Source: Roseovarius lutimaris (lineage in GTDB: Bacteria; Pseudomonadota; Alphaproteobacteria; Rhodobacterales; Rhodobacteraceae). From it: a stretch of 64,000 bases of DNA. Made by a program: the position numbers and the translations under genes. Of the stretch, positions 4,244 to 11,946 are shown piece by piece. The stretch covers positions 124,001 through 188,000 of the forward strand of contig NZ_FOVP01000005.1 in the NCBI RefSeq assembly GCF_900115165.1. The letters are read 5' to 3'. Within the stretch, counting starts at the first letter, position 1. Each line of letters begins with the position of its first letter. Below the pieces are notes generated by a model. It did not search any database. It worked only from the letters and a program-made list of their open reading frames with translations, and was not told the origin of the DNA.

Positions 4244-4735
4244 ATGGCAATGCGACGCGCCACATCACTTGACGATCTGCCCGACCGGTCCGACCTTCTG
4301 TCGCGGTCGGGGCTTGAGTTCATGCAGGACATGATCGCAGGGCGGCTTGCCGGGCCACCGATCGGGGCGACGCTTGGCTTCTGGCCGGTGCTGGCCGAGG
4401 ACGGTCAGGTGGTGTTCGAGGGTGCGGCGGGCTTTGACGTCACCAACCCAATGCGCGGGGTGCATGGTGGATGGTTCGGGGCGATCCTCGATAGCTGTAT
4501 GGCCTGCGCGGTGATGACCAGACTGGCGCGCGGCGAAGTTTATACCACATTGGAATACAAGGTGAATATCACCCGCGCCCTGCCGCTTGGCACAACGGTG
4601 CGCGCGATTGGAACAGTGTCGCATTCGGGCCGCTCGACCGGTGTCGCCACCGGCGAATTGCGCGGGGTGAAAGACGACCGGCTTTATGCCACCGGATCGA
4701 CCACCTGCATCATCATGCGCCCCGAACCGGGGTAA
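4244..4735 (+). CDS. PaaI-family hotdog thioesterase
   Basis: A 163-residue single hotdog-fold protein. The segment NPMRGVHGGWFGAILDSCMA (residues about 66-85) is the HGG..A/LD core of PaaI-type acyl-CoA thioesterases. A second conserved stretch, YTTLEYKVNITRALP, follows near residue 102. It probably hydrolyses an aryl- or acyl-CoA ester. Its substrate is unknown and no pathway genes adjoin it. Confidence 0.8.
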   Translation: MAMRRATSLDDLPDRSDLLSRSGLEFMQDMIAGRLAGPPIGATLGFWPVLAEDGQVVFEGAAGFDVTNPMRGVHGGWFGAILDSCMACAVMTRLARGEVYTTLEYKVNITRALPLGTTVRAIGTVSHSGRSTGVATGELRGVKDDRLYATGSTTCIIMRPEPG

Positions 4736-9018: not shown

Positions 9019-11946
9019 ATGGCGATGGAAAAGACATTCAACGCGACCGAGGCCGAAAACCGCCTCTATCAAGCATGGGAAACGGCCGGGGCGTTCAAGG
9101 CCGGGGCCAATGCCAAACCGGGGGCCGAACCCTTTAGCATCATGATCCCCCCGCCCAATGTGACCGGCAGCCTTCATATGGGGCACGCGTTCAACAACAC
9201 GCTTCAGGATATCCTCGTGCGCTGGCACCGGATGCGCGGTCATGACACCCTCTGGCAGCCCGGGCAGGATCACGCCGGCATCGCGACGCAAATGGTGGTC
9301 GAGCGCAAACTTGCCGCCGAGGGCCAGCCGGGCCGCCGCGACCTTGGCCGCGAGGCCTTCCTTGACAAGGTCTGGGAATGGAAAACCGAATCCGGCGGCA
9401 CTATCGTCAATCAGCTCAAGCGCCTTGGTGCCTCCTGCGACTGGTCGCGCAATGCCTTTACCATGTCCGGCGCCCCAGGCGCGCCTGCGGGCGAAGAGGG
9501 CAATTTTCACGATGCGGTGATCAAGGTCTTTGTCGATATGTACAACAAGGGCCTGATCTATCGCGGCAAGCGATTGGTCAACTGGGACCCGCATTTTGAA
9601 ACCGCGATTTCCGATCTCGAGGTCGAAAACACCGAAGTGCCGGGCCATATGTGGCACTTCAAATACCCGCTCGCGGGGGGCGAGACATATGAGTATTTGG
9701 AGAAAGATGAAGACGGGAATGTGATTTTTCGGGAAGAGCGCGATTATATTGCCATCGCGACGACCCGCCCTGAAACCATGCTCGGCGATGGCGCGGTCGC
9801 GGTGCACCCATCGGATGAGCGTTACGCGCCAATCATCGGAAAGCTATGTGAAATTCCGGTTGGCCCGAAAGAGCACCGTCGCCTGATCCCGATCATCACC
9901 GATGAGTATCCCGACCCGACCTTTGGCTCTGGTGCGGTCAAGATCACCGGGGCGCATGACTTTAACGACTATGAGGTCGCCAAGCGGGGCGGTATCCCGA
10001 TGTATCGCCTGATGGATACCCGCGCGCATATGCGTGACGATGGTGCCGATTACGCCACCTGCGCCGCTCGTGCACAAGAGATTGCCGGTGGCGCCGCCTT
10101 TGACGGTGCCGAGGTCGACACGCTCAACCTGATCCCCGACGATCTGCGCGGGTTGGACCGGTTTGAGGCGCGTGACAAGGTGATTGAGCAAATCACCTCC
10201 GAGGGATTGGCCGTCATGGTTGCACCGTCATCCTCGGGCTCGACCCGAGGACCTCAGGAGACAACAGATCCTCGGGTCGAGCCCGAGGACAAAGACGCGG
10301 ACACTCTCATTTCTTTCGTCGAATCCAAACCGATCATGCAGCCCTTTGGCGACCGCTCAAAAGTGGTGATCGAGCCGATGCTGACCGACCAGTGGTTCGT
10401 CGACACCGCCAAGATCGTCCAACCCGCCATCGACGCCGTGCGCTCGGGCGAGGTCACGATCATGCCCGAGAGCGACCGCAAGGTCTATTTCCACTGGCTT
10501 GAGAATATCGAGCCCTGGTGCATCTCGCGCCAGCTCTGGTGGGGGCACCAGATTCCGGTTTGGTATGATGCCGAAGGCACGCAATATTGCGCTGCCTCCG
10601 AGGATGAAGCCCGTGAAATGGCTGACGGCAAGCCGTTGACGCGTGATGAGGATGTCCTCGACACCTGGTTCTCTTCCGGTCTCTGGCCCATCGGCACCCT
10701 CGGCTGGCCCGAGGAGACCGATGAACTCAAGAAATACTTCCCGACCTCGGTGCTGATCACCGGCTTTGACATCATCTTTTTCTGGGTCGCCCGGATGATG
10801 ATGATGCAATATGCCGTGGTCGGGCAAAAGCCGTTCAGCCATGTTTATGTCCATGCTCTCGTGCGCGACGAGAAGGGCAAGAAGATGTCGAAATCGCTTG
10901 GCAATGTGATCGACCCGCTTGACCTTATCGACGAATACGGCGCCGATGCGGTGCGCTTTACGCTAACGGCGATGGCCGCCATGGGCCGCGATCTCAAGCT
11001 CTCAACCCAACGCGTTGCGGGCTATCGCAACTTTGGCACCAAGCTCTGGAATGCGGCGCGCTTTGCCGAGATGAACGAGGCCGTGGGCAGCGACGGTCAG
11101 GTGCCGACCCCCGAGGCCACCGTCAACCGCTGGATCGTGGGCGAGGTCGCTAAGGCCCGCATCGCCGTTGACGACGCGCTGGAAAACTTTCGCTTCAACG
11201 ACGCAGCCAATGCGCTTTATGCCTTTGTCTGGGGCACGGTCTGTGACTGGTATGTGGAGTTTTCCAAGCCGCTTTTGATGGATGGCGACGCCGCCACTAA
11301 GGCCGAAACACAGGCGACCATGGCCTGGGTGATTGACCAATGCCTGATCCTTTTGCACCCGATCATGCCCTTCGTGACCGAAGAGCTTTGGGACACGCTG
11401 GCGACCCGCGACAAGATGCTGGTGCATGCCGATTGGCCGACCTATGGCAGCGAATTGATCAACCCCGAGGCCGACCGCGAAATGAACTGGGTGATCGGGC
11501 TGATCGAACAGGTCCGCTCGGCGCGCGCGCAGATGCATGTGCCCGCCGGGCTTTATATTCCCGTGCTGGTGACCGAGCTTTCAGAGGCCGGGCGCATGGC
11601 ATGGGAGCGCAACGAGGTCATGATCAAGCGCCTTGCGCGCATTGATAGCCTGACCGACACCGAGGCCTTCCCAAAAGGCTGTGTCACCATCGCCGTTGAG
11701 GGTGGCAGCTTTGGCCTGCCACTGGCGGATATCATCGACGTGGGCGAAGAAAAGGCGCGGCTTGAAAAGACGCTTGGCAAGCTTGAAAAAGAGCTTGGCG
11801 GCCTGCGCGGACGCCTCAACAACCCAAAATTCGTCGCCTCCGCCCCCGATGAGGTGGTCGATGAGGCGCGCGAAAACCTCGCCCTGCGCGAAGAGGAAGA
11901 GGGCAAACTGCGCGCCGCCCTCGCCCGTCTGGCGGAACTCGGTTAA
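9019..11946 (+). CDS. valS: Valyl-tRNA synthetase
   Basis: A 975-residue class Ia synthetase that charges tRNA-Val and edits Thr. [12 protein letters not shown] contains the HIGH-type motif at residues 53-56. The KMSKS loop is at 622-626, DWYVEFSK lies in the anticodon-binding part, and a C-terminal coiled coil ends in ARLAELG. Starting at MAMEKTF follows the AGGAA at 9006-9010; a longer in-frame extension from 8794 overlaps the divergent ZntB-like gene. Residues 405-424 are encoded by a perfect inverted repeat that looks like an intergenic palindromic element inserted in frame between the editing region and the [16 protein letters not shown] block. Confidence 0.97.
10231..10289. repeat. Palindromic repeat element inserted in frame in valS
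   Basis: The 21-base arms at 10231-10251 and 10269-10289 are exact reverse complements across a 17-base spacer. Each arm is itself near-palindromic (TCCTCGGG...CCCGAGGA). The composition and sequence resemble the mobile intergenic palindromes common in alphaproteobacteria. Here the element is read through as about 20 codons without a stop. Confidence 0.75.

Follow-up and report, generated by a model that had tools for sequence, protein, structure and literature searches.

In-frame inverted REPs in a variable loop of valyl-tRNA synthetase, with a REP-bracketed GIY-YIG nuclease as their candidate mobiliser

Results

An inverted pair of REPs lies within the valS reading frame

The window analysed here, a stretch of 64 kb (64,000 nucleotides), carries valS with a palindromic element inside the coding sequence. 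The features are as follows, with the evidence for each in brackets.

9019-11946, + strand: valS, encoding an intact valyl-tRNA synthetase (ValS) of 975 residues, the host gene of the element (Pfam, alignment to 1GAX)
10219-10317, + strand: length-variable ValS loop, a putative recurrent landing site for REPs (alignments of relatives, 1GAX)
10226-10229, + strand: CGTC tag, the unpaired head of the left REP unit (sequence; tag as defined in the available text of PMC3733652)
10231-10251, + strand: left REP unit, 8-bp stem TCCTCGGG/CCCGAGGA and 5-nt loop CTCGA (sequence, fold)
10252-10268, + strand: 17-nt spacer, towards which the tails of both units point (sequence)
10269-10289, - strand: right REP unit, the exact reverse complement of the left, with a degenerate CGTC head (sequence)

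The Pfam domains tRNA-synt_1, Anticodon_1 and Val_tRNA-synt_C were recognized in ValS, and the protein aligned to the ValRS of T. thermophilus (1GAX), with query residues 397-448 opposite 1GAX residues 330-348. The structural mapping suggested in a first-pass annotation of this DNA was carried out through this sequence alignment only, which sets the position of the loop on the protein.

The same annotation had described exact 21-base inverted arms with a 17-base spacer at 10231-10289, read in frame as ValS residues 405-424, and both statements hold: the arm at 10231-10251 (TCCTCGGGCTCGACCCGAGGA) has its exact reverse complement at 10269-10289 beyond a 17-nt spacer, TCC at 10231 encodes residue 405, and GAC at 10288-10290 encodes residue 424. 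The arms reach 24 nt at 96% identity if imperfect pairing is allowed. Among the exact inverted repeats of the window with spacers of 3-60 nt, this 21-bp palindrome is the longest (the runner-up has 13 bp), and the element stretch is predicted to fold as RNA at -51.4 kcal/mol (z -8.7). A consensus search of the window allowing up to three mismatches returned four matches, all within the valS element, whereas shuffled sequence gave 0.17 on average; on these grounds, together with its rank among the inverted repeats, a chance palindrome was rejected.

Each 21-nt arm is itself palindromic, with an 8-bp stem and the 5-nt loop CTCGA. CGTC-REPs, in the available text of Di Nocera et al. (2013; PMC3733652), consist of a CGTC (or TGTC/CCTC) tag, a stem of 8-9 bp, a loop of 4-5 nt and a tail of approximately CCA. 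In stem and loop, the REP units of the host genome (G000) agree with this plan (8-bp stems, CTCGA or CTTGA loops), and the unpaired CGTC tag (CGTCAT or its complement) is present in the left valS unit and in three further copies on contig 29 (C29), the right valS unit being degenerate. Tails in G000 read CCTCA or CCTCC, and CCA-type tails occur in many homologous loci. The two valS units are inverted with a short spacer, as in REPINs; unlike in the REPIN/RAYT system, the tag is CGTC instead of GTAG, and no copy of this REP was found at the three Y1 loci of G000. The valS element is two CGTC-tagged REPs, inverted and with their heads outward, and its anatomy is REPIN-like. With the CTCGA loop of the valS version, the REP is open in five of six reading frames (four of six with CTTGA), which would make in-frame survival easier.

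REPs of several kinds occur in the same ValS loop

ValS was found in all of the genomes searched (60/60). The segment from GLAVM to V[ED]xKPIMQPFG varies strongly in length and sequence among relatives, contrary to the first-pass view that extra residues are unexpected at this point of ValS. Loops were read in 127 genomes, comprising 32 labelled as the same genus (G000 included) and 95 others of the family; the genus loop alignment has 33 rows, one of which is the class-level genome G044. REP-type palindromes, judged by eye from a list of hairpins, were present in the loops of 15 of the 127 (G000, G006, G008, G013, G021, G023, G031, G085, G109, G113, G131, G139, G151, G152 and G157). The kinds, also named by eye, were GTAG in G006, G021 and G031, and CCTCGGG or GTCCCGG/GCCCCGG in the others. 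The 15 leave out a possible REP remnant in G003 and loop hairpins that were not clearly REP-like (L332, L342, L353, L364, L371, L378, L388, L393 and G020).

Hairpins are concentrated in the loop. Across 32 genes, the 3,480 bp of loop sequence contained 10 perfect hairpins of at least 8 bp (in 7 of the genes), versus 14 (in 10 genes) in the 93,573 bp outside the loop, and at a minimum of 7 bp the corresponding counts were 14 and 57. A 7-bp hairpin with a loop of 4-6 nt was found in 19 of 109 ValS loops versus 77 of 2,180 codon-shuffled loops. On a FastTree tree of gap-free ValS columns, whose support values were disregarded, the REP-bearing tips are scattered, each adjoining a different loop state. 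Because the REPs are of several kinds and scattered on the tree, the essential-gene case described here is one of several at the same place. By our reading of these sequences, the ValS loop appears to be an insertion-tolerant, recurrent landing pad for several kinds of REP (CGTC, GTAG).

The nearest ValS sequences with a readable loop, those of G001 and G010, have no palindrome and different loop residues, which answers the check on close relatives that the first-pass annotation had proposed. That annotation had also named the pattern that would speak against it, namely residues conserved across relatives without the palindrome at the DNA level; we looked for this pattern and did not find it, and a conserved ValS segment was rejected, since the sister loops carry other residues and no palindrome. 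The loop segment comprises 49 residues in G000 and 48, of other sequence, in G001 and G010. Such unlike loops of 48 and 49 residues suggest that the REP pair replaced loop residues or arrived after a loop deletion, and relative to G001 and G010 the change in G000 appears closer to replacement than to clean insertion. The ValS pieces most similar to that of the window (96 and 98%) are from G024, in which contigs end on both sides of the loop.

A pattern placing the REP end beside IMQPFG, too narrow to catch other kinds of REP, matched 6 of 394 family genomes (G000, G124, G132, G220, G229 and G277). The five matches outside G000 resemble ordinary codons without a palindrome, and the loops of G124 and G132, which were read, contain none.

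A second ValS segment (10561-10635, residues about 515-540) is short here and holds other inserts in many relatives, some of more than 90 residues.

Copies elsewhere in the genome bracket a GIY-YIG gene

In the host genome (4,283,675 bases in 72 contigs), the valS-type REP, the only type counted, occurs in five copies within three mismatches, whereas the reversed control gave none. The search for further copies that the first-pass annotation had proposed thus yielded three beyond the valS pair, all between genes on C29, where they form one single REP and one inverted pair; with the valS pair this makes two inverted pairs among the five copies, a number that is low for the family. The inverted C29 pair brackets a 98-codon open reading frame (ORF) with a GIY-YIG domain (PF01541 at 39.2 bits, cut-off 22.6). 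Y8, Y19, R29, H33, E66 and N85 are invariant in all seven rows of our GIY-YIG alignment (A1), and we take the catalytic residues to be among these conserved positions. By our reading of the contig, the genes on either side of this cassette probably encode a small membrane protein and an ABC permease. At about 4674-4697 of locus L036 (G000:C29), a palindrome, ACCCCCGGATCATGTCCGGGGGT, perhaps of another REP kind, adjoins the single REP copy.

The REP-GIY-YIG-REP geometry recurs in G019 and G084, and in G084 the sole two zero-mismatch REP matches are those that bracket the GIY-YIG gene. The cassette occupies one intergenic site common to G000, G008, G019, G033 and G035; the same site is short and empty in G005, G007, G020, G029 and G031. 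Given this shared syntenic place, the cassette looks mostly inherited in those five relatives, which counts against the mobility that we propose below. At the G001 site (L273, G001:C30:136380-136620), the head and half of the stem of one REP are left, a footprint suggestive of a deletion that began in the REP and removed the cassette; it may reflect nuclease action or plain deletion. The site is a possible insertion hot spot. Between the same membrane-protein and permease genes, loci L274, L284, L285 and L289-L292 hold varied sequence with apparently small ORFs.

We examined 41 REP loci from relatives, namely L105-L129 and the short loci L295-L310 (the script saw no REP in four of them), and found no clear case of a second gene carrying the valS-type REP inside. 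ORFs of at least 40 codons lying on both sides of a REP were collected and 20 were scanned with Pfam (3 more were left out): 19 matched no family, and in the ORF at L124, which encodes an amino-acid kinase, the REP precedes the domain. Among the REP-spanning ORFs at these 41 loci, only the valS of G008 was a clear housekeeping gene. The in-gene case is therefore rare for the valS REP subfamily at the loci examined.

ValS-loop REPs and the nuclease gene occur in the same genomes

The family was sampled with one genome per genus; of the 96 genomes that gave a valS match, 15 had an A1-type GIY-YIG gene. This gene occurred in 8 of 9 genomes whose ValS-loop REPs had been picked by eye versus 7 of the 87 others (p 4e-7, kinship being ignored in this and the following p values), and, with G000 removed, in 7 of 8 of the loop-REP genomes (p 2e-6). 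When genomes were instead selected mechanically, by the presence of a perfect 7-bp hairpin anywhere in the loop, the counts were 9 of 13 versus 6 of 83 (p 2e-6). G131, which counts against the association, has ValS-loop REPs, and the A1-type search detected no nuclease gene in it. The genus-level genomes stand outside this 96-genome test; there, a PF01541 search covering G000-G021 found small GIY-YIG ORFs in the loop-REP genomes G000, G006, G008 and G013, and in G021 the only match lay in an ORF of UvrC length, which counts against a link with the nuclease.

When one REP pattern was searched in 198 genomes, it matched in 6 of 19 nuclease-bearing genomes versus 18 of 179 others (p 0.016), a weak association in which many of the 18 matches are of the one-mismatch, chance type. 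In the commoner REP subfamily, the valS REP was no closer to the nuclease flanks of its own genome than to those of others (ranks 1, 1, 9, 9, 10, 10, 16 and 19 of 21); for CCTCGGG, the own-genome match was clear at the subfamily level.

Inverted repeats flank GIY-YIG genes in other lineages

A scan of named genomes with alignment A1 gave 580 confirmed GIY-YIG relatives, the best 80 of which were fetched; 75 were testable, with 200 bases of flanking sequence to the left and right of the gene. Inverted flank matches scoring at least 14 were present at 45 of these 75 loci (from the best 80 of 580), compared with 7 of 2,743 control windows of the same geometry at the same loci. The other 30 of the 75 had no inverted flanks at this threshold, a point against general bracketing. 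The CGTC-REP plan (a stem of 8-10 bp with a GTC head at the edge) was recognized in 37 of the 45 flank repeats, typically as GTCAT-stem-loop-stem-ATCCA. Scored by script, the heads pointed outward at 30 of the 45 loci and inward at 10 (3 of them with stems no longer than 4-5 bp), and none was found at 5. The hosts of the 45 include alpha-, beta- and gammaproteobacteria, a planctomycete (L138) and a Desulfobacteraceae bacterium (L201), with Leptolyngbya (L162) and Nitrospira (L190) at the threshold; at these four numbered loci, GIY-YIG genes with inverted CGTC-REP-like flanks lie outside the main classes of Proteobacteria.

Nuclease similarity correlated with REP similarity (Mantel r 0.33, 0 of 5,000 permutations), and shared ancestry may lie behind part of this correlation. 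In Bergeriella denitrificans (Neisseriaceae), a CCCGCGCAGGCGGGAATCCAG-type repeat brackets a GIY-YIG homologue. The G000 protein shares 55% identity with an ORF from a Neisseria gonorrhoeae record and 73% with its homologue in Vannielia litorea.

Discussion

We consider it probable that a CGTC-REP pair has settled in a tolerant loop of valS and that the GIY-YIG enzyme mobilises such REPs together with its own cassette. We infer cutting and movement by this enzyme from what the sequences display directly, namely the anatomy of the pair, its copies elsewhere in the genome, its absence from sister loops, the recurrence of REPs in the loop and the bracketing of the nuclease gene, and we regard the enzyme as the best candidate mobiliser of CGTC-REPs. 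It would recognise the folded REP as single-stranded DNA and cut there, upon which REP pairs and the nuclease cassette would move or be copied. In valS, selection would spare only frame-keeping events inside the variable loop, and the 20-odd encoded residues would be tolerated without serving any necessary function.

The first-pass annotation had proposed an event similar to the insertion of Rickettsia palindromic elements, in a different lineage and with an essential gene as host. This analogy holds because the arms are of the CGTC-REP type, to which RPE-4 and RPE-6 of Rickettsia belong according to the available text of PMC3733652. What has to be amended is the picture of the event: the loop appears to have been replaced and not cleanly inserted into, and the target seems tolerant and recurrently invaded.

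An IS200/IS605-type transposase (Y1, RAYT-like) could instead have moved the pair, as with GTAG REPs, and G000 does have a Y1_Tnp gene on C32, with pieces at the ends of C25, just as GTAG-type REPs do occur in three of the ValS loops (those of G006, G021 and G031). However, the valS-type REP was not found at the three Y1 loci of G000, its five REP places being elsewhere, nor at any of the Y1 loci checked in G010 and G000 (L409-L412, L414 and L417). A Y1_Tnp match was absent from 8 of 12 genomes searched, including the REP-bearing G008 and G019, and G008, G013, G019, G023 and G033 had none at E 0.001. As far as the text of PMC3733652 is available, a tyrosine transposase gene with CGTC flanks was not found in that survey either, and we consider this route improbable. 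Two further observations concern these transposases: 152-aa Y1 (IS200-type) ORFs are present in G010 as four equal-scoring copies (C35, C43, C68 and C96) and on C32 of G000, and G006 (L041), G021 (L051) and G031 (L059) have GTAG-type loop palindromes yet no detected Y1 transposase, which counts against our preferred reading as well. That valS itself gave rise to the palindrome, by chance or under selection (as a regulatory hairpin of the mRNA, for example), is hardly credible: the predicted mRNA hairpin is very stable, but the same REP sequence is found in intergenic copies, sister valS genes are without it, other relatives have different palindromes, and conservation across the genus is lacking.

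Homologous recombination could have brought in a valS allele that already held the REP pair, with no transposition in this genome. The G000 loop does seem to have been replaced as a unit relative to G001 and G010 (49 versus 48 residues), and the left unit, the reading frame and the CTCGA loop are common to the valS genes of G008 and G000. Nevertheless, the right unit of G008 differs from that of G000, the ValS tree (support values disregarded) places G000 with G010 and G001 and not with G008, several unrelated REPs are found in the loop across the family, and an earlier event in the donor would still be required, so that we think this origin unlikely. The nuclease might also be a host or passenger enzyme that cuts REPs for another purpose, such as the tuning of DNA uptake, with the REPs multiplying by other means, for example through replication errors at hairpins. 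A site-specific, single-strand-DNA-cutting GIY-YIG family named Ssn was reportedly described in Neisseria in 2025, with NTS repeats; its members are said to target repeats and to influence transformation, and the 55% identity between the G000 protein and the gonococcal ORF would fit such a role. That work is not known to claim REP mobilisation or insertion into coding genes; should it report repeats next to Ssn genes as a widespread feature, the link to the nuclease is partly known already. Against a bystander nuclease, inverted copies on both sides at 45 of the 75 testable loci (best 80 of 580) give the gene the layout of a self-bounded cassette, and its patchy presence goes together with ValS-loop REPs; we hold this explanation to be rather unlikely. 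Mobilisation by the GIY-YIG enzyme is the reading that we retain.

More broadly, CGTC-REPs, and by extension RPE-4 and RPE-6, could be non-autonomous elements spread by the GIY-YIG nuclease of a REP-bounded cassette, a transposase-free counterpart of RAYT/REPIN in many phyla that has repeatedly remodelled one ValS loop; we put this forward tentatively, as possible but somewhat short of probable. In the 2013 REP classification, judged from its available text (PMC3733652), CGTC repeats, including those in Rickettsia genes, had no dedicated mobiliser and, apart from a few fortuitous cases, no association with transposase genes; it was suggested that the mobiliser had been lost or that its role falls to many transposases. 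The same text lists intragenic REPs, including some in tRNA synthetases of three species, with intragenic dimers and groups amounting to 20 to 30 residues. A nuclease gene bracketed by CGTC repeats in several phyla is a concrete and testable mobiliser candidate, and the ValS loop can be viewed as a natural experiment in the conversion of selfish DNA into protein sequence, with several independent captures at one position of an essential enzyme.

Among the matches listed for titles and abstracts of the open literature, none joined GIY-YIG with CGTC-REPs or described the ValS loop; in the available text of PMC9465073, GIY-YIG and the paired term occur in unrelated places only. In the text of PMC3733652 at hand, a link between CGTC-REPs and GIY-YIG was not seen, the word 'endonuclease' occurring once.

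Like Neisseria Ssn, the enzyme described here is a small GIY-YIG protein, homologous to it (55% to the N. gonorrhoeae ORF), and the homologue of B. denitrificans is repeat-bracketed. The elements resemble the CGTC-REPs of PMC3733652, so far as its text describes them, in their tag, 8-bp stem, 5-nt loop, inverted dimers and lack of an adjoining transposase, as well as in being mostly intergenic with some in-frame intragenic units and in their predominantly alphaproteobacterial hosts; unlike those, they lie within a valS loop targeted by several kinds of REP, and copies bracket a GIY-YIG gene. With RPE-4 and RPE-6 of Rickettsia, likened here via the description in PMC3733652 only, they share the presence of CGTC-type palindromes in frame in genes, whereas the order is another and the copy number here is very low. 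As in the REPIN/RAYT system, in the available texts of PMC3116915 and PMC2817692, REPs are inverted with a short spacer and flank the gene of a partner enzyme, but the tag is CGTC instead of GTAG and the partner is a GIY-YIG nuclease instead of a Y1/HUH transposase.
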